Source: a virus. From it: DNA of 38,923 nt. The notes beneath the pieces were generated by a model. It did no database searches. It was not told the origin of the DNA and saw only the letters and a program-made list of their open reading frames with translations. The stretch covers positions 1 through 38,923 of IMG/VR virus record IMGVR_UViG_3300044987_003178; one strand, given 5' to 3'. Position numbers and translations under genes: made by a program. Positions 1,197 through 38,923 of this stretch are shown here, piece after piece. The stretch's first letter is position 1, and each line of letters opens with the position of its first letter.

Positions 1197-2171
1197 TCAG
1201 GCGGTCAGGAGCGAGAACGGGCAGCGCGTGGCGTCCGTCTCGTTCATCTTGTTGGGCGGGTTCGGCATGGCGAAGCCGAGGCGCATGACGCAGCGCAGCG
1301 CGGCGGAGTCCTGCTGCATGAGGTTGAGCACGATGTGACCGGTGGCGTCGCTGATGACGCCCTCGGTGAAGATCTGGTAGGTCATGTCCTGGCGGATCGC
1401 GTAGACCAGCTGGTCCCACTGGCCGACGATGTCCAGAGCCTGAGCAGCGCTGACCGACCCGTCCGTCGGGAAGTACGTCGGGGCGCCGTCGATCTCGTAG
1501 CGAGTGGCGTCCTGGGGCGCGGTGGTGAAGAGCGGCACGCCGTCGGTGCTGCGGCAGTTGCGCAGGCGGCCACGAAGAGCGGTGGCGGCGACGTGACCGG
1601 TCGCCATGTAGCCGTCCGCCTCGAGGCGCATGAGCTGGCCGTCGGCGGCACCATCTGCGGACTCGCCGGCGATGGCCTCGTAGAGGTCGGAGAAGCCGGC
1701 GATCGAGGCGACGTTCCCGGCCGCCGTGGCGACGGTGACGAGGCCGGCCCCGCCGAGGTCCGTGGTCCACGTGGCGGGGATGTTGGTGCCATAGGCCACG
1801 GCGCCCCAGATGGTGCGCGAGAAGGCCATCTCGATCTCGGGCTTGGACTCCCCCCAGATGTCGTAGTCGACGTCGTCGACGACGGCCAGCGGGATCGGCA
1901 GGATGACGGCGATCTCCTCGGCGTCGATGTACTTGTTGGTCCAGTCGACTTCGGTCGTCTGCTTGAGGCCGGTGTCGCCGGAGACGAAGTAGGCGTAGGG
2001 GCTGGCGCCGAACATCGGCATCCGCACCTGGGCGGCTGACATGTTCGGCAGCTGCCGCGCCAGCTGCATGAGCGGGTTGATCTTCGGGACGCTCTTGATG
2101 ATGTCCCGGCTCACGTCTTCGGGGATGAGCGCGCTTACCTCAGCGCGCCCCGTGATGTTTGCATAGCCCAT
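1197..2171 (-). CDS. Major capsid protein (HK97-like)
   Basis: A 324-residue protein directly downstream of the scaffold gene, which is the expected place for the major capsid protein. The N-terminal part holds ALIPEDVSRDIIKSVPKINP and then 'L..QLPNMSAAQVRMPMF', matching the N-arm and E-loop region of HK97-fold capsid proteins of the actinophage type. The middle (VDWTNKYIDAEEIAVILPIP) fits the peripheral-domain strand and spine helix region. The C-terminal part (YQIFTEGVISD...NLMQQDSAALRCVMRLGF) matches the A-domain ending common to this family. The ATG at 2171 has a GAGGA ribosome site. No maturation protease cleavage site is evident, and the family often uses a separate scaffold. Confidence 0.9.
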   Translation of the reverse strand: MGYANITGRAEVSALIPEDVSRDIIKSVPKINPLMQLARQLPNMSAAQVRMPMFGASPYAYFVSGDTGLKQTTEVDWTNKYIDAEEIAVILPIPLAVVDDVDYDIWGESKPEIEMAFSRTIWGAVAYGTNIPATWTTDLGGAGLVTVATAAGNVASIAGFSDLYEAIAGESADGAADGQLMRLEADGYMATGHVAATALRGRLRNCRSTDGVPLFTTAPQDATRYEIDGAPTYFPTDGSVSAAQALDIVGQWDQLVYAIRQDMTYQIFTEGVISDATGHIVLNLMQQDSAALRCVMRLGFAMPNPPNKMNETDATRCPFSLLTA

Positions 2172-8034: not shown

Positions 8035-8194
8035 AAGATATGCCCACCCTTCTCCACTTCAGGTGTGAAGAAGTGCGCTGAATCAGGCTCGTTCGTGCTT
8101 GGGGCGACACGCGACAGCCTCGAGCCTGACGATGCTCACATCGCCCCTCAGGGGGGATGCAGATAGCCTCAATCAGCGCCGGATGTGCCCACCC
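8035..8194. other. Candidate attP region beside integrase
   Basis: The 134-bp gap between the integrase stop and the HTH gene, plus the integrase 3' end, holds a 13-base direct repeat with one mismatch: GATATGCCCACCC at 8037-8049 and GATGTGCCCACCC at 8182-8194. It also holds an inverted pair, GGGGCGA at 8101-8107 and TCGCCCC at 8141-8147, and the palindrome CCCCTCAGGGG at 8144-8154. Short direct repeats flanking a core are expected of integrase arm sites. No core can be named without the bacterial site. The inverted repeats might instead end integrase transcription. Confidence 0.35.
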
Positions 8195-9266
8195 CTGTGC
8201 CAGTATCGTCCGCCAACAGGCCGCCGAGGCTCGTCTCCAGGCGCTCCACGGCAAGTGCGTCGTCGTCGGCCAGGACATGGCTGTAGACCTCTGCGGTGAT
8301 GGCCGAGGAGGCGTGACCGAGGCGCTTGGACACGGCGTCGAGGCGCACTCCGGCGCGCAGGAGCTGCGTGGCGTGGGTGTGGCGCAGATCGTGGAAGCGA
8401 ACGCCCGTGCCGAGACGCTTCCAGCCGCCGGAGAAGGTCGACTGTTGCCACGATCTGCCGTCCCTGGCCGGAAACACGAGGTCTCTGTCGTGCCAGCGTT
8501 CTTCCGCAAGGCGTTCGGCGGCCTGGGCCTTGCGGTGCGCACGCAGCGCGGAGACAGTCGCAGCCATCAGCGTGATCGGTGAGTGTTTCGCGCTGCCCTT
8601 CGTGCGCCGCACCTGGAGTACGGCGCCGTCGAGATCCACGTCAGCCCATGTCAGGCGCAGCAGTTCGCCGGCGCGCATCCCGGTGGTCACTGCGACCAGC
8701 GCCGGAGCTGCGAAGCGCGTGCCCTTGACCACCGCCAGCATGACCACAGTCTCCGGCTCGGACAGCGCCCTCATGTGCGTCTTGCGCGGCTTCGGAGGAG
8801 TCACAGCGTCGAGAGGGTTGTCCGTGAGCAGGCGCCACGCGACCGCCTTGGCGAAGGCCGCTCGCAGGCGCTTGTGGCGCTTGCGGATGGTGTTGGGAGA
8901 AAGCGCGGTCTCCTGGTCGAACCACTCCTGCCACTGCAACGGGCGCACATCTGCGAGCTTGGTCGCGGAGATGGCCTTGGGGATCTGGCGAACGACCGAT
9001 TCGTCGCTGTCGACGCTGTGGGCGCTGCGCTCCTGGGTGCGCTCGTGTGCGATCCAGCGCTTGAGGTAGGCGCCCACGGTCTGCGTGTGCGGCTCGAGCA
9101 TCGACTCCCGGTGCTTGCGCTCCAGCTTGGCCTTGGCCGCGTTGCGCGCCTCGGTCCTGGTGCGCCTGATCGCGTTCGCCCTCAGCCGGCGGCCGCCGGA
9201 GCCCTCCGACTCGAAGGCACGCCAGCGGCCGTCGTCCAGCTGCTCCACCCATCCCAAGACGTTCAC
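8169..9266 (-). CDS. int: Tyrosine integrase
   Basis: A 365-residue phage integrase. The N-terminal arm-binding region (1-55) is followed by a core-binding SAM-like domain (about 60-150) and a catalytic domain (165-340). All active-site residues are visible: R198 (TGMRAGELLRL), K223 (RRTKGS), H292 and R295 (HDLRH), H318 (RLGHAS) and nucleophile Y328 (AEVYSHV). The protein therefore looks active and implies a temperate life style. The GTG start at 9266 lies 31 bp after the RusA stop. No directionality factor is adjacent. The best excisionase candidates are at 18568..18786 and 19459..19635. Confidence 0.95.
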   Translation of the reverse strand: MNVLGWVEQLDDGRWRAFESEGSGGRRLRANAIRRTRTEARNAAKAKLERKHRESMLEPHTQTVGAYLKRWIAHERTQERSAHSVDSDESVVRQIPKAISATKLADVRPLQWQEWFDQETALSPNTIRKRHKRLRAAFAKAVAWRLLTDNPLDAVTPPKPRKTHMRALSEPETVVMLAVVKGTRFAAPALVAVTTGMRAGELLRLTWADVDLDGAVLQVRRTKGSAKHSPITLMAATVSALRAHRKAQAAERLAEERWHDRDLVFPARDGRSWQQSTFSGGWKRLGTGVRFHDLRHTHATQLLRAGVRLDAVSKRLGHASSAITAEVYSHVLADDDALAVERLETSLGGLLADDTGTGVGTSGAD

Positions 9267-28837: not shown

Positions 28838-30711
28838 CAGTGCATCTCCTCGTAGGTCCGTGGACACTGCTCGTCGCCGGACTCGTCGTTGTGCGTCATG
28901 AACTCGGGCAGGTGCCTGATCTCCACCATGACGTCGTTGGAGAGACAGACCGGCTCACCGAACTCCGTGTCTTCAGGGTCCGTGCCGACGATCAGTGGGT
29001 GTCTGACGAGTGACTCATCCATCGTGCGGATGCGGATCACGACGATCCCCCTGCCGCCGTCTCCGGCGGAATACTGGGCGTCGCCCACATTGAGGTATCC
29101 GCCGCCGCCGCCGCCGCCGGTTCCAAGTGCGCCGTCCTGGCCCTCTTCCCCACCGCCACCGTATCCGGGCTTCGTCGCCGCGGTCGACCATGACCATCCT
29201 CCCGGCTTGCGGGGACCGCCGGCACCGCCACCCGCGTACCAGTCGACATACATGTACTGGTGCGCGGTCTCTTCGTACATGTGCCAGCCACGGATGTCGC
29301 AGGGGCGGCCGTGGCCGCCGTGGAAAGGATTCCCCGACTGCATCTCGCCGAACTGGTCATAGGTGAACCAGGGCCACTCGACGCCGTCGACCGTGCGCGT
29401 GGGGATGTGTGCGCCGCCGCCGCCGCCGCCGGCAAGGACCTGGCCGCCATAAGCACTGGTGCCGATCTTGCCGTCGTGCCCGCGAGGAAGACTGACGATC
29501 CAGAAGCGGTCCTCATCGTCGTCTTCCCAGAACCCCGTCCCGCCCTCGGGGGCGTCCACGGGGTCACCGTTCTCATCGGTCACATAGGGGTGCGTCGAGT
29601 ACCACTCGTCGACCTGCGCCCCTCCACCGGCAGCGGCTCCTCCGTCGCGTGTCCCATTGACCACGCCATAGTCCCAGAACGACCCGTCGCCGGGGACGTA
29701 CTGGTCGAACGGGATCGTGTCTCCGTACTCCTCCTCGCCCCACTCCCAGATCCATGCGTGCCAGGTGCGCCCGCCGCCGCCGGATCCGCCGGAGTTCGGA
29801 GGCCACCCCTCCCCCGCGAGAGGCTCATAATCAATGAACTCCGTGCCTCCATAGCCACCGCCGAGCGCCGTGTAGCCGGCGAAGGAGCTGTCGCCGCCGT
29901 TGTCAGGCACAGCGCTCCCGTCGGTGTGCTCACCGCCGGCACCAACGATCACATCCCCGTCGTTCTCCCCGGCCTCGATCGTCACGTCGTGTTTGTCGAT
30001 CATCTCGCCGGCGCCGCCGCCGCCACCTTCCGGGCCATACCCCCCCGGGGCGCCGCCGCCGACCGCAAGGATGTCAGCAACGATGGACTCGCCGTTCAGC
30101 AGAGTGAACGAACTCGACCCGGAGAAGGTGTAGACCGTCCAGCCCGGAAGCGTGCGGAAGTACAGGAGCTCCGACGGCTCAGAGATATTGAGCGAACGGT
30201 CGATGCCCCGCACGCGGTAGCAGCGCTCCTCGCCCGCTGCGCCGACTTCGGTCCACGAGAGCGTCGGATGCACGCGCTCCCAAACCATGGCCCGGCAGGG
30301 GCCCGAGGTCGAAGACTCGATGAGGTAGCCGAGCATCTCGTCGGGACGCAGCTTGCTGGATGGGTTCCAGCGCCACAGGAGGTCGTCGCCCACGACCCGG
30401 CCACGTAGACCGGAGGGAGCCGTCGGCGGCACCTGGTCGGCCGGCGGCCGGGCGCTCGTCGAGACGCTGAACCAGGCCGCGTCCACCTCGCTCGACTCCT
30501 CGGCGTCGCGGTAAGCCTTCACCTGATAGCGGTAGGCCCGCGAGGGCAGGACGTCATCGTCGATGAAGACCTCGGCGTAGGTCATGGCGACATCGCGGTC
30601 GTCACGGAAGACGCGGTAGTGGTGGTAGACGGGCAGACCGTCGGTGCCGAACATGGGGCCGTCCATGCGATCCCAGGCGATGAGCACACGGTCGTGGCGC
30701 GAGAACTGCAT
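28837..30711 (-). CDS. FN3 and glycine-rich tail adhesin
   Basis: A 624-residue protein. Residues 1-87 and 95-188 look like fibronectin type III domains (RAYRYQVKAYRDAEESSEVD; EERCYRVRGIDRSLNISEPS). Residues 190-562 form a glycine-rich domain. It opens WTVYTFSGSSSFTLLNGESI and closes GDGGRGIVVIRIRT, with many runs of four to seven Gly separated by two inserts rich in Trp, Tyr, Asp and His (about 316-415 and 436-490). Related Gly-rich domains occur in phage adhesins such as T-even-like gp38 proteins. It probably recognises a host surface sugar or protein. The start overlaps the tape measure stop (TGATG). Confidence 0.8.
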   Translation of the reverse strand: MQFSRHDRVLIAWDRMDGPMFGTDGLPVYHHYRVFRDDRDVAMTYAEVFIDDDVLPSRAYRYQVKAYRDAEESSEVDAAWFSVSTSARPPADQVPPTAPSGLRGRVVGDDLLWRWNPSSKLRPDEMLGYLIESSTSGPCRAMVWERVHPTLSWTEVGAAGEERCYRVRGIDRSLNISEPSELLYFRTLPGWTVYTFSGSSSFTLLNGESIVADILAVGGGAPGGYGPEGGGGGAGEMIDKHDVTIEAGENDGDVIVGAGGEHTDGSAVPDNGGDSSFAGYTALGGGYGGTEFIDYEPLAGEGWPPNSGGSGGGGRTWHAWIWEWGEEEYGDTIPFDQYVPGDGSFWDYGVVNGTRDGGAAAGGGAQVDEWYSTHPYVTDENGDPVDAPEGGTGFWEDDDEDRFWIVSLPRGHDGKIGTSAYGGQVLAGGGGGGAHIPTRTVDGVEWPWFTYDQFGEMQSGNPFHGGHGRPCDIRGWHMYEETAHQYMYVDWYAGGGAGGPRKPGGWSWSTAATKPGYGGGGEEGQDGALGTGGGGGGGYLNVGDAQYSAGDGGRGIVVIRIRTMDESLVRHPLIVGTDPEDTEFGEPVCLSNDVMVEIRHLPEFMTHNDESGDEQCPRTYEEMH

Positions 30712-33700
30712 CAGAACGTCGTCCTCGCCACGCTGACCTTCCCATTGCCGAGGTAGGGCTCCAGGCGGTAGGCGATGCTGCGCAGGTCGCCGTCGCTGAC
30801 CTCGCCGGAGAGCGCGAAGACCGGCAGGACGACCTGGGTGACCCCACCCTGGCCGCCCCCGGCGACGCCGAGCGCGACGCCCCCGGCGGTGGCTGAGCCC
30901 AGCTTGCTGCCCATCGTCTTGGAGAGGTCGCTCATGCTGGCGAAGATGTCGCGCAGCGTGCTCACGGCTGCCTGCGCGGCCTGCAGGCGCGTCATGTCGG
31001 GGATCTGGTCCAGCGCGGAGCTCAGCGCCGTGACGATCTGCAGGAGGGCGCCACCGACGCCCTGCCAGATGCCGCCCATGCTGCCGGCCCGCTTCGTGAA
31101 GTCCTCGAGCGCACCGAGCTTCTCGGGCAGCTCGCTGGCCAGGTCAAGGATGCTGCCGATGGTCTCGACCATCGTGCCGACGTTGCCGAGGTCGGCGGCG
31201 TTCGCCTTGAGCTCGTCGCCGCTCCACACCGCCTGGAACCCGGTGACCAGCTGACCGACGGCCTCGATCAGCGCCGAGGTCAGCTCGGCCCAGTTCTGGC
31301 GCACCAGGCTGACCGCCGACTTCGGCGCGTTCGCGATGAAGTCGAGGATGCTGCCCAGCGGTCCCACCATCTGACCGATGAGCTGCATCGTGTCGCCCTG
31401 GCTCTTGAGGAGCTCATCGCCGACGCCCTCGTAAGCGTCGAGGAACTGCCCGACCGCGTCCCGCACCGCATCGCCCAGGGCGCGCCACGCCTGCGGGATG
31501 ACCTTGACCGCCTCTTCGGGAGCCGCGGTGAAGAACGAGACGATGGCGCCGAGCGAGCCGGCCATGCCGGCCACCGACCCCATGCGGCCGGCGTCCTTGC
31601 CGAGCTTCTTCGTGGTCACGTCCTCGAAGGCGGCGAGGACCTCAGCCACGGCGGAGCGCACGACCTGCGCGAGCTGTCCCCACTTCTGTGGCACGACGGA
31701 GACAGCCTTGTCCGGCAGGTTCGCGAGCGTGCCGATGAGGCTGCCGATGCCGCCGGCCGCGGCGCCGATCGAGCCCATGCGCGTCGCGTCTGCGCCGAGA
31801 CGCTTGGAGTCAACGTCGTCGAAGACGGCGAGGACCTCGTCGACGGCCGTCTTCGCCACGCGCGCCAGGGCACGCCATTTCTGCGGCATGACGGTCACCG
31901 CCTTGTCGGGCAGCGAAGCGAGCGAGCTGACGAGTGCGGAGAGGCCGCCTGCAGCGCCACCCGCCGACCCCGCCCGTTCGGCGCTGCGCGCCAGCTCCTT
32001 CGTCGTCGACTCCTCGAAGACGGCCAGGACCTGAGAGAGACCGCTCTTCGTCATGGTGGCCAGCGCCGCCCAGTTCTGGCGACCGGGACTGACGGCCTTC
32101 TTGGGAAGCCCGGCGAGGCCGCCCACGAACGTGCCGAGCGAGCCGGCCATGCTGCCGATGTCCCCGGCCCGCTCGGCGCTCGTGCCGAGCGCCTTGGTCG
32201 AGTAGTCGTCGAAGACGCCGAGGATGTCGCCGAGGGCGCCGCGCAGCATGGACGCGAGGGCGCCCCAGTTCTGCCGCGCCGGCGCCACGGCCTTCTTCGG
32301 CAGCTCTGCCAGCGAGGTCGCCACGGCCCCGATCCCGCCGGCGATGGAGCCGACGGACCCGGTGCGGTCGGCGAACGTCTTGAGAGCCTCATCGGACATG
32401 TCGGCGAAGGCCGAGGTGATCTCGCCGCCCGCTTTGCGGACGCCGGCGGAGATGCTGGTCCAGTCACGGGCCAGTACCTGCTCTGCGTTCTTGGGGATGC
32501 GCGCCAGCGTGCCAACGAGCTGGGCGCCGGCGGCGGCGGTGTCCTCGGCTGTGGCTGCCACCGCGGCGGCCACCGGGGCCCCGGCAGCGGCAGGCGCGAT
32601 CGCAGTGGGAGCGGTGCTGCCGTGCGCGGAGACAGGTGCCCCCGACTCCCCAGGAGCCGGCGGGGCGGCCGGGTTGAGCGCGCTGTTCGCCTTCCCGCGC
32701 AGCCACTGGCCGATGATGCTCATAGGGCCCAGGACCATGTCGACGCCGCTCATGACCCAGTTCGCGATGTCCATGCCCAGCTTCTTGAAGCTGGCCCCGT
32801 CGAGGCTCGGCGCGCGCAGGCCCTTCTCCGAGATCTCGGTGAAGTAGTTGCTGATGTCGCCCAGCGCCTTGGAGAGGTCACCGGCGACTGCCAGCGTGTC
32901 ACCGAAGGCGCTGCTGGTCCCCGCCAGGCCGGCCGGCAGCTTGTCGAGCCCGGTGAGGATGTCGTTGAGGCTGCCGACCATCTCGGCCAGCTTCGGAAGC
33001 ACCTCGGTGCCGACCTTCGCGCCCAGGTCCTGGAGCTTCGACGTGACCCTCTTGGTGCCGTTCGCGAGGCTGTCCGATGTCTCGGAGACGTCGCCCTGCG
33101 CGTTCTTCGTCTGCTGCAGGATGAGGGCGTAGGCCGCGGTCGCACGCGTCATCGGCGGGAGGCTCGCGCCGGCCGTGTCGAGGCCCATCCGCATCGCCTG
33201 CGCCTTGAGCGAGGCCTCGTCCAGCATGACGCCGAACTGGCGCAGCGGTTCGGTCTCGCCGATGAGGCCGGCGCGGATGGCCTGCAGAGCATCAGCGACG
33301 GGCACATTGTTGAACGATGCGAGGTCGGCCGCGAGCAGCACGAGACGCTCGCTCATGGCGGCCGACTCCTCCTGCCCGTAGCCCATGGAGGTGAAGAGGT
33401 TGCCGAAGGTGGCCATGGCCTCGAGCGCCGCCTGACGGCTGAGCAGGAGCTTGTCGGAGGCCTCCTCGGCGAAGTCGACGACGCTCTGCGCCGCCTCACC
33501 GAAGACCACCTTCGTCTTGTTCATGGTCTCGTTGAGGTCGGACGCCTGGTCCACCGAGTAGGCGAGGCCGGCGGCCAGGGCGAGGCCGGCGGCGCCGGCG
33601 ATCTCCCACTTGTACTGGCCGAGCACGGACGTCATCTCGCTGACGACGCCACGCATCCCGGCCTTCACCGGGCCGGGGTCGACGGAGAGCGGCAGCACGA

Positions 33701-33914
33701 TGGGTATGCCCTTCGCGCTGGTCGCAAGTCCGGCCATCTGCAGCTTCGCGCCGGCCAGCTCCTTCTGCAGATGCTTGGTGTCGATGCCGAACTTGGCGTC
33801 CCACTGCTTCTTCGTGAAGACGCTTGCCTCTGTGCGCGCCTTGGCGAGGTCGGCAAAGTAGCCCTTGGCGTCGAGGCCGAGACTCGCGTAGAGGTCGCCT
33901 ACTTGCAGAGGCAT
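30711..33914 (-). CDS. Tape measure protein
   Basis: A 1067-residue protein after the frameshifting tail chaperone, the standard place for the tape measure. Residues about 85-330 contain the phage TMP core (SDLNETMNKTKVVFGEAAQS; AMATFGNLFTSMGYGQEES; ALQAIRAGLIGETEPLRQFG), with a hydrophobic segment at 104-121. A Pro/Ala linker (412-460) leads into seven tandem 65-residue repeats (about 455-920). A C-terminal part ends in a beta-rich tail. At about 1.5 angstrom per helical residue it predicts a tail near 160 nm, a rough estimate. Confidence 0.93.
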   Translation of the reverse strand: MPLQVGDLYASLGLDAKGYFADLAKARTEASVFTKKQWDAKFGIDTKHLQKELAGAKLQMAGLATSAKGIPIVLPLSVDPGPVKAGMRGVVSEMTSVLGQYKWEIAGAAGLALAAGLAYSVDQASDLNETMNKTKVVFGEAAQSVVDFAEEASDKLLLSRQAALEAMATFGNLFTSMGYGQEESAAMSERLVLLAADLASFNNVPVADALQAIRAGLIGETEPLRQFGVMLDEASLKAQAMRMGLDTAGASLPPMTRATAAYALILQQTKNAQGDVSETSDSLANGTKRVTSKLQDLGAKVGTEVLPKLAEMVGSLNDILTGLDKLPAGLAGTSSAFGDTLAVAGDLSKALGDISNYFTEISEKGLRAPSLDGASFKKLGMDIANWVMSGVDMVLGPMSIIGQWLRGKANSALNPAAPPAPGESGAPVSAHGSTAPTAIAPAAAGAPVAAAVAATAEDTAAAGAQLVGTLARIPKNAEQVLARDWTSISAGVRKAGGEITSAFADMSDEALKTFADRTGSVGSIAGGIGAVATSLAELPKKAVAPARQNWGALASMLRGALGDILGVFDDYSTKALGTSAERAGDIGSMAGSLGTFVGGLAGLPKKAVSPGRQNWAALATMTKSGLSQVLAVFEESTTKELARSAERAGSAGGAAGGLSALVSSLASLPDKAVTVMPQKWRALARVAKTAVDEVLAVFDDVDSKRLGADATRMGSIGAAAGGIGSLIGTLANLPDKAVSVVPQKWGQLAQVVRSAVAEVLAAFEDVTTKKLGKDAGRMGSVAGMAGSLGAIVSFFTAAPEEAVKVIPQAWRALGDAVRDAVGQFLDAYEGVGDELLKSQGDTMQLIGQMVGPLGSILDFIANAPKSAVSLVRQNWAELTSALIEAVGQLVTGFQAVWSGDELKANAADLGNVGTMVETIGSILDLASELPEKLGALEDFTKRAGSMGGIWQGVGGALLQIVTALSSALDQIPDMTRLQAAQAAVSTLRDIFASMSDLSKTMGSKLGSATAGGVALGVAGGGQGGVTQVVLPVFALSGEVSDGDLRSIAYRLEPYLGNGKVSVARTTF
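31172..32552 (-). repeat. Seven 65-residue (195-bp) repeats within tape measure gene
   Basis: Tryptophans at residues 485, 550, 615, 680, 745, 810 and 875 recur at exactly 65-residue spacing. Each lies in a segment like 'LP.KAV...RQNW.ALA', followed by '...VLAVF.....K.L....R.GS.G..AGG'. The repeats have diverged in protein sequence but kept perfect length, so insertions and deletions seem to be excluded. This implies a regular structure along the tail lumen. Confidence 0.9.
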
Positions 33915-34497: not shown

Positions 34498-34941
34498 TCA
34501 GCTTCCGGACTCGGCGGGAATGCCCTTGACCGAGAGCGTCGCGGACCAGTTGGCCCCAGACTTGTGGTCGCCGCCGAACGGCTGGCATTCCACGGAGGCG
34601 GTGAAGATCCAGATGAGGCCGCCGGGGCTGGTGATCTGGAACTGCAGACGGGCCTCCTCGCCGGTCTCCCACTGCACGGCCTCGACCGCGGCCTGCCCGG
34701 AGTCGCGCTCCCCGGTGTCGGGGTCCTCGAGGCGGTTCGCCGTCACGGCGAAGCTGACGGCGTGCCCGACGATGCGCTCGTCGGCGCCGTCGGAGTCGCA
34801 GTCGGACAGGTCGATCTTGTCTGTCGAGACAGACATCGTGAGGTCCTTGCGGCCGCCGATCTTGGTCCACGTCGGCGAGCCCTCGGTGCCGGTGTTGACG
34901 TTCAGGACGAAGTCCCTGCTCAGTACCTTCTCCAGCGCCAT
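34498..34941 (-). CDS. Major tail protein
   Basis: A 147-residue protein beginning MALEKVLSRDFVLNVNTGTE. 'WTKIGGRKDLTMSVSTDKID' and 'GHAVSFAVTANRLEDPDTGE' are typical of siphovirus tail tube subunits, and the C-terminal strand pair ends WSATLSVKGIPAESG. It precedes the tail chaperone gene and follows the tail terminator gene, the standard order. It should form hexameric rings around the tape measure. Confidence 0.88.
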   Translation of the reverse strand: MALEKVLSRDFVLNVNTGTEGSPTWTKIGGRKDLTMSVSTDKIDLSDCDSDGADERIVGHAVSFAVTANRLEDPDTGERDSGQAAVEAVQWETGEEARLQFQITSPGGLIWIFTASVECQPFGGDHKSGANWSATLSVKGIPAESGS

Positions 34942-34953
34942 GAGTGGTGCTCC

Positions 34954-35388
34954 TTACTCGCGATGTGCGGTCTGCGCCCTGACGTGCAGGGCGAGGTTGA
35001 CGACGAACTCGTGACGGCCGAGATCGTCGGTTCCGAGGTAGACGGGTCCGGTCTGCTGACAGGTCGCGAGGATGAGGCGGACCTCATCGTCGGTGTCTGC
35101 GGCCAAGGTCGTGTGCGCGAGGCCCTGCCAGGCCGCGTACACCGCGCCAGCCCGGCTCTCCGCCGTGCGCGGGTCGTCGGTTCCGCGGATGTGGACCTGC
35201 ACGGTCGGCTCGTCGTAGCCGAGCATCCAGTCGCCCTCGACCGGGTTCGCTCCGTAGGCGGTGACCGAGACCGCCTCGTCCGGATCGGGCGGCAGCTGGC
35301 GCTGCACGAAGCAGTCGCCGCCGGCGTCCTCACGCAGGTCGACGAGGCCGAGGCTGTGCATGTAGTGGGCGACGGCCGCGGCGATCAC
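34954..35388 (-). CDS. Tail terminator protein
   Basis: A 144-residue protein between the gp10-like gene and the major tail gene. The N-terminal helix (IAAAVAHYMHSLGLVDLRED), then GYDEPTVQVHIRGTDDPRTA and 'AVYAAWQGLAHTTLAADTDD', and the final strand 'LGRHEFVVNLALHVRAQT' match the tail terminator/minor capsid pattern of siphoviruses. The GTG start overlaps the previous stop (GTGA). It would cap the tail tube before joining to the head. Confidence 0.82.
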   Translation of the reverse strand: MIAAAVAHYMHSLGLVDLREDAGGDCFVQRQLPPDPDEAVSVTAYGANPVEGDWMLGYDEPTVQVHIRGTDDPRTAESRAGAVYAAWQGLAHTTLAADTDDEVRLILATCQQTGPVYLGTDDLGRHEFVVNLALHVRAQTAHRE

Positions 35389-35777
35389 GTGTAGAGCCTC
35401 CGTAGCTCCACGGCTATCAGCGTCACGCCGATCTCGGATGACGCCTTCGCCGGCCGCTCCAGGAACTTGGCGGTCTTGCCGGCCCCGTGCCGCGCGTGCA
35501 GGTCCTCGTGGACCCAGACGGCGATGTTGCCGCGGCCCCTCCGGCGAGCGTCCTCGCGCACGGGAGGAGAGGTGTAGGACACGGTGGCCTTGAGGGTCAC
35601 GGGGTCGACGTCGACCGTGCCGGAATCGCGCAGGGCTCCGGATCCGGCGCCCTCGGCGACGGGGCAGACATCCTGTGACTCCGCGAGCACGTGGTTGGCC
35701 CAGGCCTCGAGGCCGCGAGCCGCCGCTGCCATCATGCCGGTGGTCGCCTTCGCATCGTCCCAGAGGAAACGGCTCAT
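35385..35777 (-). CDS. HK97 gp10-like head-tail connection protein
   Basis: A 130-residue protein. An N-terminal helix (MMAAAARGLEAWANHVLAES) is followed by the characteristic 'CPVAEGAGSGALRDSGTVDV' (CPV.tG.LrdS motif of the gp10/HK97_gp10 family), strands including TVSYTSPPV and IAVWVHE, and a final helix 'KFLERPAKA'. It follows the glycosyltransferase cassette with a 4-base overlap. The family acts at the head-tail interface or in tail completion. Confidence 0.88.
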   Translation of the reverse strand: MSRFLWDDAKATTGMMAAAARGLEAWANHVLAESQDVCPVAEGAGSGALRDSGTVDVDPVTLKATVSYTSPPVREDARRRGRGNIAVWVHEDLHARHGAGKTAKFLERPAKASSEIGVTLIAVELRRLYT

Positions 35778-36580
35778 GGGGCCACCTTCAGCGTCTCCCA
35801 GTTGGGCAGGCCGCTCAGACGCCTGACCCGCCGGCTCGTCGGGGCCAGCCGCAGGACAAGACCAGTGACGCAGTGCCGCATCACGACCACGTCGTCGATC
35901 GCCTCAGCGCCGCTGACCACGCGACCGCTCCAGTCGATGTCGAGCGCCGATGCGTCCTCGCCGATGAATGTGTGAGCGACGCGCGTGTGCATCGCCTTGA
36001 CGCGGTCAGTGCCGCCGCGGCCGGGCACGAGCGAGGGCCCGTCGGCGTGGTCGACGAGCGATGGCCACGTGTACCAGGTGAGGACACTGCGCTGCAGCTC
36101 GAAGAAGCGCGAGAGGCGGCGGTCGTAGTTGGGGATGTCCTTCAGAGCGTCGCAGTGCGCGATCATTTCAGGGATGAGCGCCGTCGGCACGGCGACGAGC
36201 GGACCCCAGTTCAGAGTGTGCATCGTGAGCCACGAGGCCCCGAGCTTGCGCGCCTTGACGGCCGCATTGGTGACCATCTCGGCGTAGGGCCGCACACGCC
36301 CGACGTAGCCGCAGACGGGGACGCCGGCCGGCACCTTGGAGAGCGCGACCTCGAGGCCGGCGAAGAGGTCGCGACAGACGAGGACGTCGTCCTGGATGAC
36401 GGCGTGATGAGTGCAGGCCGGGTCGTAGGCGAGCATCGCCCGCCTGCCGGTATCCCAGCGGCTGTTCTTCTCGTCCCAGGTGACCGGCACGTCACGGTCG
36501 AGGCGCGCGCGGATGGCCTCCACCTGCTTGGCGCGCTTGGGGTGAGCCATCATGGCCACGGACAGCGTGACGGCGCTCAC
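35774..36580 (-). CDS. Glycosyltransferase (actinophage type)
   Basis: A 268-residue protein. It starts 'SAVTLSVAMMAHPKRAKQVE', followed by VTWDEKNSRWDTGRRAML and 'HHAVIQDDVLVCRDLFAGLE'. QDD at 63-65 stands in for the metal-binding DxD of GT-A enzymes. I recognise this combination from putative glycosyltransferases in actinobacteriophages. The donor and acceptor are unknown. It is coupled on both sides, to the methyltransferase gene upstream and the gp10-like gene downstream, and so is co-expressed with virion assembly genes. Modification of virion proteins is the simplest inference. Confidence 0.78.
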   Translation of the reverse strand: MSAVTLSVAMMAHPKRAKQVEAIRARLDRDVPVTWDEKNSRWDTGRRAMLAYDPACTHHAVIQDDVLVCRDLFAGLEVALSKVPAGVPVCGYVGRVRPYAEMVTNAAVKARKLGASWLTMHTLNWGPLVAVPTALIPEMIAHCDALKDIPNYDRRLSRFFELQRSVLTWYTWPSLVDHADGPSLVPGRGGTDRVKAMHTRVAHTFIGEDASALDIDWSGRVVSGAEAIDDVVVMRHCVTGLVLRLAPTSRRVRRLSGLPNWETLKVAP

Positions 36581-37137
36581 GTGGCCACCTCACGGAAGAC
36601 CCAGAAGCCGATGTCGCGTTCGCCGGCCGGCCGGTGCAGGATCTCCCAGCCCTTCGGCACATCGGGCAGGAACTCGCGATGCAGGACGTGCGCCTCGCCC
36701 TCTTCGTCGACGTTCGACGAATGGATGCAGACGAGCGGCGCCGAGCCGAAGAGGAGGCGCAGGTGACGCCGGTAGTAGCGCTCTTCGGTCAGGTGGAAGA
36801 TGACGTCCAGTGACAGCGCCAGCTGCGCCGGCGGCAGGTCGGGCGTCTTCCAGCCATCGAACTGGACCCAGGTGCGACGCGGCAGCCTGACGCGCTCCTC
36901 GCAGAGCGCGAGCGCCGTGGGTGAGACATCGATACCGACGTAGCGGCGGCAGTGCAGCATCGCGGCGATCACGCCGTCACCGCAGCCCCAGTCGACGACG
37001 CGGTTGACGTGGCGCTCGGCGATGAGGGCATTGACGAAAACAGCCTTGCGCTCGGCCTCGGCGCCGCAGGAGCCGGGCCCGGAGCCGCGCTTTCCCTCGC
37101 GGTAGCGGCGCTCCCAGTAGGTGGTGACGCTGCTCAC
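36577..37137 (-). CDS. SAM-dependent methyltransferase (class I)
   Basis: A 186-residue protein with motif I VVDWGCGDG at about 47-55, the acidic strand-2 end YVGIDVSPTAL with D70, and LALSLDVIFHLTEERYYRRH in place of motif IV (D near 113). There is no DNA-methylase catalytic motif (no PC or DPPY), so a small-molecule, sugar or protein substrate is more likely. The GTG overlaps the preceding stop. Lying between two glycosyltransferases, it may O-methylate the sugar they attach. Confidence 0.82.
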   Translation of the reverse strand: MSSVTTYWERRYREGKRGSGPGSCGAEAERKAVFVNALIAERHVNRVVDWGCGDGVIAAMLHCRRYVGIDVSPTALALCEERVRLPRRTWVQFDGWKTPDLPPAQLALSLDVIFHLTEERYYRRHLRLLFGSAPLVCIHSSNVDEEGEAHVLHREFLPDVPKGWEILHRPAGERDIGFWVFREVAT

Positions 37138-37772
37138 AGGATGCGTCCCTTCATGCGGTGCTGGTTGTTCCACCAGTGACGCGCCACCTCGTCGGGCGCC
37201 GGCGGCTTACTCAGCCGCTCGAGCTCGTTGCAGGCCACGGCGTAGAACCACGCCTGGGGGTAGACCGTCATCTCGTCCTCGTGGCCGCGATACTGAGCTG
37301 TCACGTAGTGAGGGCCGCTGACCTTGCTGGGGCGGATGCTGCGACCAGAAAGGACGGAGGCCGACAGGTTCGCGACGAGCCGTGCCATGAAGGCGTTGCC
37401 GGGCTCACAGCCGAGGATCGCGTTGTTGACGACGCGATCCTGTATCTCCCAGGCGGCGAAGCAGGGCACGTCGCAGAGGCCGTCGATGGGCTTGAGTGGC
37501 TGGAAGTCGACATCCACCCAGACGCCGCCGTACTCGAGGAGAAGTTCGTAGCGCAGGACGTCTGAGCGCAGCTGCGCCTCGAAGCCGGGGCAGAGCTCGG
37601 CGGCGCGGTCGAACAGCTCAGCGTTGCGCAGCTCGGGCAGATCCGCGTCCGTCCAGAGGTGGTACTCCCACCCTGGGTGGAGCAGGCGCCAGCCGGCGGC
37701 GAACTCGGAGAACTCCGCCGGCATTGCGCTGCCGGTCCAGTACTGATGCAGGATCATCTCCAAGCGATTCAC
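37134..37772 (-). CDS. DXD-sugar glycosyltransferase (Gly_transf_sug/OCH1-like)
   Basis: A 212-residue protein starting with a GTG that overlaps the head-closure stop. 'MILHQYWTGSAMPAEF', 'HPGWEYHLWTDADLPEL' and 'LRSDVLRYELLLEYGGVWVD' followed by VDFQPLKPID match the Gly_transf_sug family (PF04488), with metal-binding D87-V-D89. C-terminal 'GPHYVTAQY' and 'ACNELERLSKPP' also fit. The enzyme would transfer a hexose from a nucleotide sugar. It is slightly shorter than many relatives but has the core. It heads a three-gene cassette between connector genes. Confidence 0.88.
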   Translation of the reverse strand: MNRLEMILHQYWTGSAMPAEFSEFAAGWRLLHPGWEYHLWTDADLPELRNAELFDRAAELCPGFEAQLRSDVLRYELLLEYGGVWVDVDFQPLKPIDGLCDVPCFAAWEIQDRVVNNAILGCEPGNAFMARLVANLSASVLSGRSIRPSKVSGPHYVTAQYRGHEDEMTVYPQAWFYAVACNELERLSKPPAPDEVARHWWNNQHRMKGRIL

Positions 37773-38083
37773 GCGCACACCACTTCCACGACCACCGTTT
37801 CTCCAGGGCGCCCCGAGGGTTCGACTGAGATGACCCTGCTGTGGTAGTCGCCGATCGTGACGAGCGAGTCCGCGGCGAAGAGAGATTCGTCGTCCGGATG
37901 CACGTGCAGGGTCAGCTCCGAGACCACCTCGGCGCCGCTTGCGTCGCGCACGAGGCGGCGCGTCCAGGAGACCTTGCAGGCGACCGCGATGCCGTCCGCC
38001 CTGACGGGTCCGTAGGCGCCCTCTCCGGTGCGCGTCTCCACCGTGACTTCGTCGCGCAGCAGTCTGCGTGAGACGCCTCTCAT
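37769..38083 (-). CDS. Head closure (head-tail stopper) protein
   Basis: A 104-residue protein beginning MRGVSRRLLRDEVTVETRTG, a typical opening of head-closure proteins. A set of beta strands follows (VSWTRRLVRDASGAEVVSEL; SLVTIGDYHSRVISVEPSGR). ATG at 38083 overlaps the adaptor stop (TGATG); a GTG one codon earlier is possible. It should bind the adaptor ring and keep DNA in the filled head. Confidence 0.8.
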   Translation of the reverse strand: MRGVSRRLLRDEVTVETRTGEGAYGPVRADGIAVACKVSWTRRLVRDASGAEVVSELTLHVHPDDESLFAADSLVTIGDYHSRVISVEPSGRPGETVVVEVVCA

Positions 38084-38535
38084 CACTCGGCCGGCTCCGG
38101 AGCGTTGACGACGATGTAGCCGTCGTCGCTGAAGAGCGCGGCGACGTCACCCTCGAGCGAGGGCAGGGGAAGGTCAGTCGTGAGGGTGACCGTCCCGACG
38201 CCGAGCCGTCCGGCGGCACGCCTGACGGCACGCTTCTCGTCGGCCGTCAGGTAGACGCCGGAGGCGGTGACGACGCCGGCACGCCATGTATAGGAGCCGA
38301 TCGTCTCGCCCTGCAGCCCGGCGGGGTTGTCGAACGCCCGCCGGGCTGCCTCGCATACGACCGGCAGCAGGGCCGCCGGCACGGTGGCACTCGTCCAGGG
38401 AGCGTCCAGGTCAGCGACGTCCAGGATCAGCGCCGAAGCGTCTTCGAGGAGAGCATTCACCTGGGCGATCTCGTCCTCGGTGAGAGTCACGCCCCAGCGC
38501 ACCTCGCAGTCGGTGTATGCGGCGAGCGCGGCCAT
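38083..38535 (-). CDS. Head-tail adaptor protein (gp15/gp6-type connector)
   Basis: A 150-residue helical protein. 'EVRWGVTLTEDEIAQVNALL', EDASALILDVADLDAPW and 'AALLPVVCEAARRAFDNPAG' match the Gp15/Gp19-type adaptor of Gram-positive phages. The centre (GETIGSYTWRAG...VYLTADEKRAVRRAAG) contains the 'LT..E...L' segment typical of actinophage members. It docks on the portal. The gene is preceded by the 141-residue virion protein split at the window ends. Confidence 0.85.
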   Translation of the reverse strand: MAALAAYTDCEVRWGVTLTEDEIAQVNALLEDASALILDVADLDAPWTSATVPAALLPVVCEAARRAFDNPAGLQGETIGSYTWRAGVVTASGVYLTADEKRAVRRAAGRLGVGTVTLTTDLPLPSLEGDVAALFSDDGYIVVNAPEPAE

Positions 38536-38538
38536 GGA

Positions 38539-38923
38539 TCACGCCGTGAAGTCAGGCACGCGAACGTACTCGAAGAAGAAGATCCCCGAGTAGCCGGAGG
38601 TGTCGGCCGAGCCGAAGGCGGCGATGTAGTCGCCCTCCGGGACCTTCGGCAGCGAATCGGCGGCGTCGCCGTTGGCGAACCCGGTGACGGCGGTGCCGTG
38701 CGAGTCGGCCTGCGCCGCGGCGGCGAACAGGTCGGTCCGATCGTGCGCGCCGGCCACCGTGGCGGCGTTGCCGACGGTGATGTTCGCGACCCCCGCGGAG
38801 TTGACCAGCCCGTAGAGGAAGGCGCGGGTCACGATGATGTCGCAGGCCTCCGGGTTCTGGATGTAGCCGAGGCAGCCGGCCGCATCTGCGCTGTGCGCGG
38901 CCTGCCCGGTGAGCGCGAAGGAG
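38539..38923 (-). CDS. Virion-associated protein, 3' part (gene split by window ends)
   Basis: C-terminal part of the protein that starts at 168. Read across the junction, the full product is 141 residues and ends YVRVPDFTA. Its sequence is rich in Ala, Gly, Thr and Asp with alternating hydrophobic residues (IFFFEYVRV near the end), which fits a beta-rich structural protein. The stop codon is 3 bases from the ATG of the adaptor gene at 38535, so the two are probably translated together. No enzyme motif is seen. Function as a small capsid or decoration protein is inferred from position only. Confidence 0.75.
   Translation of the reverse strand, partial: SFALTGQAAHSADAAGCLGYIQNPEACDIIVTRAFLYGLVNSAGVANITVGNAATVAGAHDRTDLFAAAAQADSHGTAVTGFANGDAADSLPKVPEGDYIAAFGSADTSGYSGIFFFEYVRVPDFTA
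38797..38923. repeat. Terminal direct repeat, right copy
   Basis: Exact copy of bases 1..127. Joining the two copies gives a 38,796-bp circle and restores one intact minus-strand gene. A real direct terminal repeat of phage DNA is possible but less likely, because the repeat starts and ends in mid-gene. Confidence 0.95.

Follow-up and report, generated by a model that had tools for sequence, protein, structure and literature searches.

The window analyzed here, a virus record (IMGVR_UViG_3300044987_003178) of 38,923 bases with 68% G+C, carries three adjoining genes encoding a putative glycosyltransferase (GT-A), a putative methyltransferase (MT) and a second putative glycosyltransferase (GT-B), which lie between the head-closure gene and a gp10-like gene (Table 1). 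From sequence comparisons we consider it likely that these genes form a self-contained cassette for virion-protein glycosylation of the type known from phage Che8, in which GT-B would act on the serine that ends the tail-tube protein, GT-A would add a second sugar and MT would provide a methyl cap. Che8-type virion glycosylation is known, whereas the association of the GT-B family, phrog_854, with C-terminal Ser or Gly-Ser is new.

The original prediction, made from the letters alone, had placed three sugar-modification genes between the head-closure and gp10-like genes, and the coordinates, minus strand and neighbors agreed with it. The motifs it named (DVD 87-89 in GT-A, VVDWGCGDG in MT and QDD 63-65 in GT-B) were all found and are conserved across 32-40 relatives, with QDD in 100%, DWGCGDG in 100% and DxD in 94-97%. 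Every junction from the head-closure gene to the gp10-like gene was said to be a 4-base overlap, and GTGA, GTGA, GTGA and ATGA could be read directly in the sequence. These overlaps had been taken to tie the cassette to the assembly genes; they are present, but the Ad1/head-closure and gp10-like/tail-terminator junctions overlap in the same way, and we rejected them as special evidence for the cassette. They are a habit of the operon and are not cassette-specific.

Two glycosyltransferases and a methyltransferase

GT-A matched Pfam family PF04488 (Gly_transf_sug; 2.4e-10, 41.4 bits against a cut-off of 23) with its DxD at D87/D89, and D87, D89, D71, R74 and H199 are conserved in its relatives. 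Its profile also matched solved enzymes of the GT32/GT44 type, such as the initiation-specific alpha-1,6-mannosyltransferase 9n3s, and GT-A is classified here by sequence as a GT32-like DxD glycosyltransferase, which would extend or vary the glycan. Some structure matches were large clostridial toxins, a likeness that reflects only the common ancestry of the catalytic fold in the GT32/GT44 clan; GT-A is a bare core of 212 amino acids (aa) without delivery parts.

MT matched Methyltransf_25 (PF13649, 2.7e-7), with DWGCGDG invariant in its relatives, and by sequence is assigned to the class I S-adenosylmethionine (SAM) methyltransferases. Its AlphaFold2 model, built from 26 window and IMG/VR sequences, had a predicted local distance difference test (pLDDT) score of 91.5. 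The best fold match of this model in the PDB was NodS (E 3.4e-10, template modeling (TM) score of about 0.7), yet at 17% identity; NodS is the Nod-factor chitooligosaccharide N-methyltransferase. The NodS-like fold suggests a glycan substrate, although class I folds are promiscuous, and MT would be a glycan methylase. A tblastn search with MT against GenBank phages returned no match.

GT-B matched phrog_854 (3.3e-36), while the Pfam scan found no domain in it, and Q63-D64-D65 is invariant across 33 aligned relatives. A sequence search in the PDB returned nothing even at E = 1, so fold comparison was needed. The GT-B model has a fold of the GT-A class (overall pLDDT 82.6, with the last 40 residues unreliable; residues 223-268 form a poorly conserved, low-confidence tail) and came closest to mimivirus R655 protein, GnT-I, KfiA and POMGnT2, with TM scores of about 0.4-0.5 that indicate likeness at the fold level only. 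The structure predictions called for in the original prediction thus gave a NodS-like MT and a glycosyltransferase fold for GT-B. By BLASTP, GT-B aligned with Che8 gp110 over 197 aa (8e-17), and gp110 itself belongs to phrog_854 (1e-99). According to PMC12363180, which cites Freeman et al. 2023, Che8 gp110 and Corndog gp38 are essential to capsid glycosylation. GT-B detected 386 phage records by tblastn, nearly all of them mycobacteriophages, in addition to Gordonia phages and the Actinoplanes phage phiAsp2. A distant homologue (27%) was also seen in a Candidatus Shapirobacteria contig (L060), an assembly from a candidate phyla radiation bacterium. Since GT-B is constant across systems while the other transferases and methylases change, its action as primer is the simplest scheme, and GT-B would accordingly be the initiating protein glycosyltransferase.

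Phages with phrog_854 and the C-termini of their capsid and tail-tube proteins

In seven independent phages that carry phrog_854, whose presence was checked in each whole record, all capsid and tail-tube proteins end in Ser (14/14) and 11 of the 14 end in Gly-Ser, although these proteins are mostly unrelated: Che8 (capsid gp6 ...NKTGS, tail tube gp11 ...QYSDGS), Dylan (LVGS, KGDS), prophiGD27-1 (RAGS, IAGS), Fryberger (YAGS, EPAS), LittleLaf (PQGS, FGGS), coliphage mEp390 (SSGS, ASGS) and Gordonia phage Neville (PDPS, AAGS). Twelve phages without phrog_854 (Dubu, AGM1, TM4, Giles, Swervy, Herb, Splinter, SophKB, BIB3, HK97, HK446 and mEp506) had C-terminal Ser in 8 and Gly-Ser in 3 of their 24 capsid and tail-tube proteins. 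Fisher tests, which ignore relatedness, gave 3e-5 for Ser (14/14 vs 8/24) and 8e-5 for Gly-Ser (11/14 vs 3/24). None of 14 other proteins examined from the Che8 structural region ends in Gly-Ser.

A further contrast was found within one capsid family, whose cassette-bearing members end in TLGS or PGGS (6/6), whereas close relatives in which no cassette was seen between capsid and Ad1 end in TLGA, TLGA, TLGD and TLGV (0/4 Ser). This contrast of LGS or GGS with LGA, LGD or LGV is nearly isogenic. Among tail-tube proteins of the same family as the window's, Gly-Ser ends occurred in 3/6 with GT-B vs 1/48 without it, many of these controls being incomplete contigs. A gene-agnostic test, in which 6.1% of open reading frames end in Gly-Ser in GT-B loci vs 2.3% without GT-B, is dominated by one large family and is supporting only. 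Among 18 proteins checked in the window, the tail-tube protein alone ends in Gly-Ser; the predicted acceptor is therefore its Ser147 and not the capsid, which under a C-terminal Ser rule is predicted to be unmodified.

A phage with phrog_854 thus nearly always has a Ser-ended capsid or tail-tube protein, with one departing protein each in contig L051 and in the window, whereas a Ser ending is by itself no proof of the enzyme. The pattern extends to the enterobacterial HK97-like phages mEp390 (L180), LMessi (L184) and Cronobacter phage ENT39118 (L186), which combine Gly-Ser ends of capsid and tail tube with a phrog_854 profile match that spans a TGA, and virion glycosylation may by this evidence reach beyond actinobacteriophages. 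We give even chances to a more general proposal: that phrog_854 proteins are initiating protein O-glycosyltransferases reading a minimal C-terminal Ser tag, usually Gly-Ser. This tag would have evolved several times, on capsid and tail-tube proteins that are not related to each other, in actinobacteriophages and also in the coliphages mEp390 and LMessi; it would come and go together with the cassette and form with it an exchangeable virion-coating module.

Linkage and variation of the cassette

When IMG/VR contigs were fetched with MT alone, 28 of the 29 testable ones had GT-B no more than 1.5 kb downstream, and GT-A lay upstream in all 24 (24/24). Conversely, contigs fetched for GT-B with enough upstream sequence held GT-A in 49/51 and both GT-A and a recognized methyltransferase in 35/51. 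A search for the same gene order in related prophages had been proposed as a check, and GT-A, methyltransferase and GT-B do travel together beside structural genes. The middle of the cassette holds nothing extra in the window, L008 and L009; elsewhere it includes Methyltransf_24, FkbM, polysaccharide deacetylase, UDP-glucose dehydrogenase, GT2 or LicD. In a Microbacterium prophage (L056:5751-6665) a GDP-mannose 4,6-dehydratase gene (PF16363, 9e-109) lies directly upstream of GT32 and phrog_854 genes, which suggests by homology a phage-made sugar donor, possibly a deoxyhexose.

The insertion site varies: the cassette follows head closure in the window, lies between capsid and Ad1 in L003-L007 and L051-L053 (L052 and L053 being prophages of Glycomyces tenuis and Streptomyces aidingensis), and in another group stands between a phrog_792 protein and a head-tail adaptor. 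Its flanks are head and tail genes, also in actinobacterial prophages, and genome matches place the hosts mainly in Actinomycetota. The unit is thus mobile in position yet stays with virion genes. At the capsid-Ad1 site of a cassette-free phage (L069:1700-3600) we noticed by eye a large LamG/SGNH-like surface-protein frame, perhaps an alternative capsid decoration.

Neighboring genes and ends of the record

Table 1 Positions and assignments of the cassette genes, their neighbors and the virion proteins considered as acceptors.
Feature	Position	Strand	Assignment and remarks
GT-A	37134..37772	-	212 aa, GTG start, D87-V88-D89
MT	36577..37137	-	186 aa, GTG start, VVDWGCGDG at residues 47-55
GT-B	35774..36580	-	268 aa, GTG start, Q63-D64-D65
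Head-tail connector / head closure	37769..38086	-	phrog_3881 3.5e-16; 4-base overlap with GT-A
Head-tail adaptor Ad1	38083..38535	-	phrog_137 2.7e-23; precedes head-tail connector
gp10/Neck1-like protein	35385..35777	-	weak matches: phrog_556 0.0015, phrog_5 0.075; 4-base overlap with GT-B
Tail terminator	34954..35388	-	PF12691 8.7e-16
Major tail (tube) protein	34498..34941	-	147 aa, ends ...PAESGS; PF06199 1.2e-6, phrog_3884 1.3e-21; predicted glycan acceptor
Gly-Ser codons at C-terminus of tail-tube protein	34501..34506	-	predicted acceptor Ser147
Major head protein	1197..2171	-	phrog_10 1.5e-30; ends ...SLLTA, no C-terminal Ser

When the end of the window was compared with phages by megablast, no match was returned, and there is thus no near relative deposited among those phages. 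At the window ends (1-232 and 38539-38923) the last gene runs on at the window start, giving about 142 aa. Contig L002 has the order capsid, the gene at 233-1177, the gene cut at the window end, and Ad1; this order continues across the window ends, which shows circular permutation or terminal joining of the record. The gene at 233-1177, right after the capsid gene, encodes a 314-aa protein that matched neither Pfam nor PHROG and may be a second protein of the head or a decoration protein. The tape-measure protein (30711-33914) contains several similar repeats of about 70 residues, MGS..GxLG..P..AV....W..L, recognized by eye.

The window and L006 are alike in terminase (70%) and portal (55%), whereas their capsids belong to different families (phrog_10 at 1197-2171 in the window, phrog_283 at L006:3769-4710), and the cassette precedes Ad1 in L006 and follows head closure in the window. 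This contrast amounts to a swap of the head module.

Proposed mechanism and alternatives

Families, motifs, gene order, linkage to virion genes, homology to an implicated enzyme and co-occurrence with Ser/Gly-Ser ends are direct observations. Late in infection, GT-B would use a host nucleotide-sugar to place the first sugar on the hydroxyl group of the last residue, Ser147, of the tail-tube protein (...ESGS), GT-A would add or elaborate a second sugar, and MT would add a SAM-derived methyl cap to the glycan, so that each tail-tube subunit would bear a small C-terminal surface glycan. In this scheme we infer the initiating role of GT-B, the order of the two transferases, the identities of the sugars, their methylation, the choice of Ser147 and the benefit, which might be shielding of the particle or an altered surface or adsorption. 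That the cassette decorates virion proteins, as the original prediction proposed, is the best-supported reading, given the homology of GT-B to Che8 gp110, the like combination of transferases and methyltransferase in Che8 and cluster O phages, the linkage to virion genes across unrelated phages and the co-occurring acceptor termini. The prediction also derived the timing of modification from position; the genes do lie beside virion genes, but this position is probably not essential because the Che8 cassette lies far from head genes.

Several observations weigh against the proposed scheme. GT-B and Che8 gp110 share only 30% identity, and the association tests leave relatedness aside. The capsid of the window ends in -TA, which leaves the tail tube as the single fitting protein among the two usual acceptors, and the tail-tube protein of the GT-B-bearing L051 ends in -TRA. 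Among phages without phrog_854, the HK97 capsid ends in -SSGS, both mEp506 proteins end in -SGS and those of BIB3 end in -SS and -AS, and Ser is also the last residue of several distant capsid relatives from contigs that lack phrog_854; C-terminal Gly-Ser of the capsid was therefore rejected as an exclusive marker. Moreover, the methylated group may be a protein side chain instead of a sugar.

The main live alternative is a different virion acceptor, in which the capsid, a fiber or a minor tail protein is glycosylated, or MT methylates a protein, and the tail-tube Gly-Ser is coincidental. C-terminal Ser is fairly common without phrog_854 (8/24, and in distant capsid relatives), some IMG/VR cassettes adjoin tail-fiber genes, and the fold matches of MT include protein N-terminal methyltransferases. 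Against coincidence stand the association of 14/14 vs 8/24 and the change from S to A, D or V within one capsid family; PMC12619734 locates the glycans at the C-termini of both the capsid and the tail-tube subunit, with which the association agrees, and the best fold match of MT is the glycan methylase NodS. We consider this alternative rather unlikely.

Alternatively, the cassette might act in lysogeny or late in infection on a polymer of the host surface, be it teichoic acid, arabinogalactan, capsule or another glycan, and so block superinfection or re-adsorption in the manner of gtr serotype-conversion cassettes. The phage is temperate, as it encodes a tyrosine integrase (8169-9266), and some relatives hold capsule-type enzymes (polysaccharide deacetylase, LicD, UDP-glucose dehydrogenase). 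The gtr-type set comprises a flippase, a lipid-carrier transferase and a multi-pass membrane transferase; no such set, and no GtrA/GtrB-like flippase or lipid-carrier transferase, turned up in the window genes to which the Pfam scan was applied, and the three proteins lack a hydrophobic stretch (maximum 19-residue Kyte-Doolittle mean 0.86-1.41). The genes belong to the late structural operon, the closest homologue with a tested function acts on virions (PMC12363180), and co-occurrence with capsid and tail C-termini would be unexpected. Wall modification, the alternative named in the original prediction, thus lost ground and is improbable. Least probable is glycosylation of phage DNA bases (T4-like or hypermodified), a role that phage glycosyltransferases often have and that annotations have given to phage glucosyltransferases (PMC10955285), for no thymidylate/dCMP hydroxymethylase or other base-hypermodification gene was found among the window genes scanned (small open reading frames were left unscanned), it is with virion genes that the cassette co-varies, not with those for replication, and the Che8 homologue is reported to modify virion protein.

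The preferred reading is tail-tube glycosylation by a Che8-type cassette. Cassettes of this type occur widely in uncultivated phages, most of them actinobacterial; they are modular and shift within the virion operon. Together, phrog_854 and C-terminal Ser/Gly-Ser would provide a sequence rule predicting which phages, and which of their proteins, are sugar-coated. Such a rule would be relevant to the surface chemistry of phages, to how the immune system recognizes therapeutic phages and to protein glycosylation at small tags.

Comparison with known glycosylation systems

Reports of phage virion glycosylation date only from 2023 and concern mainly mycobacteriophages. In cluster O phages, according to PMC11600133, an O-methyltransferase is followed by three glycosyltransferases, and capsid and tail tube are modified. 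Corndog and Dylan, of this cluster, resemble the window in having an O-methyltransferase and glycosyltransferases ending in phrog_854 inside the structural operon, and differ in having three transferases, the methyltransferase first, other upstream transferase families and placement before the capsid gene. The Dylan cassette (gp32-35) lies between portal and protease, with a capsid ending in -GS and a tail tube in -DS.

Pas33-Pas34-Pas35 of Actinoplanes phage phiAsp2 likewise comprise a glycosyltransferase, a methyltransferase-containing protein and a phrog_854 protein, with a 4-base overlap at the last junction, but Pas34 is a 596-aa fusion of glycosyltransferase and Methyltransf_24, and GT32 is absent. 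Pas19 ends in -AGS, while the identity of the phiAsp2 capsid is uncertain. Among GT32 (Och1-like) enzymes, GT-A shares PF04488 with its DxD, unlike them consisting of the catalytic core only, without a membrane anchor.

The namesake of the proposed type is Che8 (mycobacteriophage cluster F; Freeman et al. 2023). Its genes gp108-109-110 are joined by 4-base overlaps and form a GT/methyltransferase/GT/GT cassette, in which gp108 is a GT2 + Methyltransf_24/TylF fusion; the tested Che8 system therefore also holds a sugar-methylase-type domain. It differs from the window in its remaining transferases (GT2-type/phrog_8858 and phrog_1721), in having as methylase a Methyltransf_24 fused to GT2, and in the place of its cassette at the right genome end. 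The Che8 capsid ends in -GS, whereas that of the window ends in ...SLLTA, and C-terminal Ser on the capsid is not established as a defining feature of such systems. What the window shares with Che8 is a phrog_854 transferase as last gene, a further transferase and a methyltransferase module in an overlapping set, and a tail-tube protein ending in Gly-Ser.

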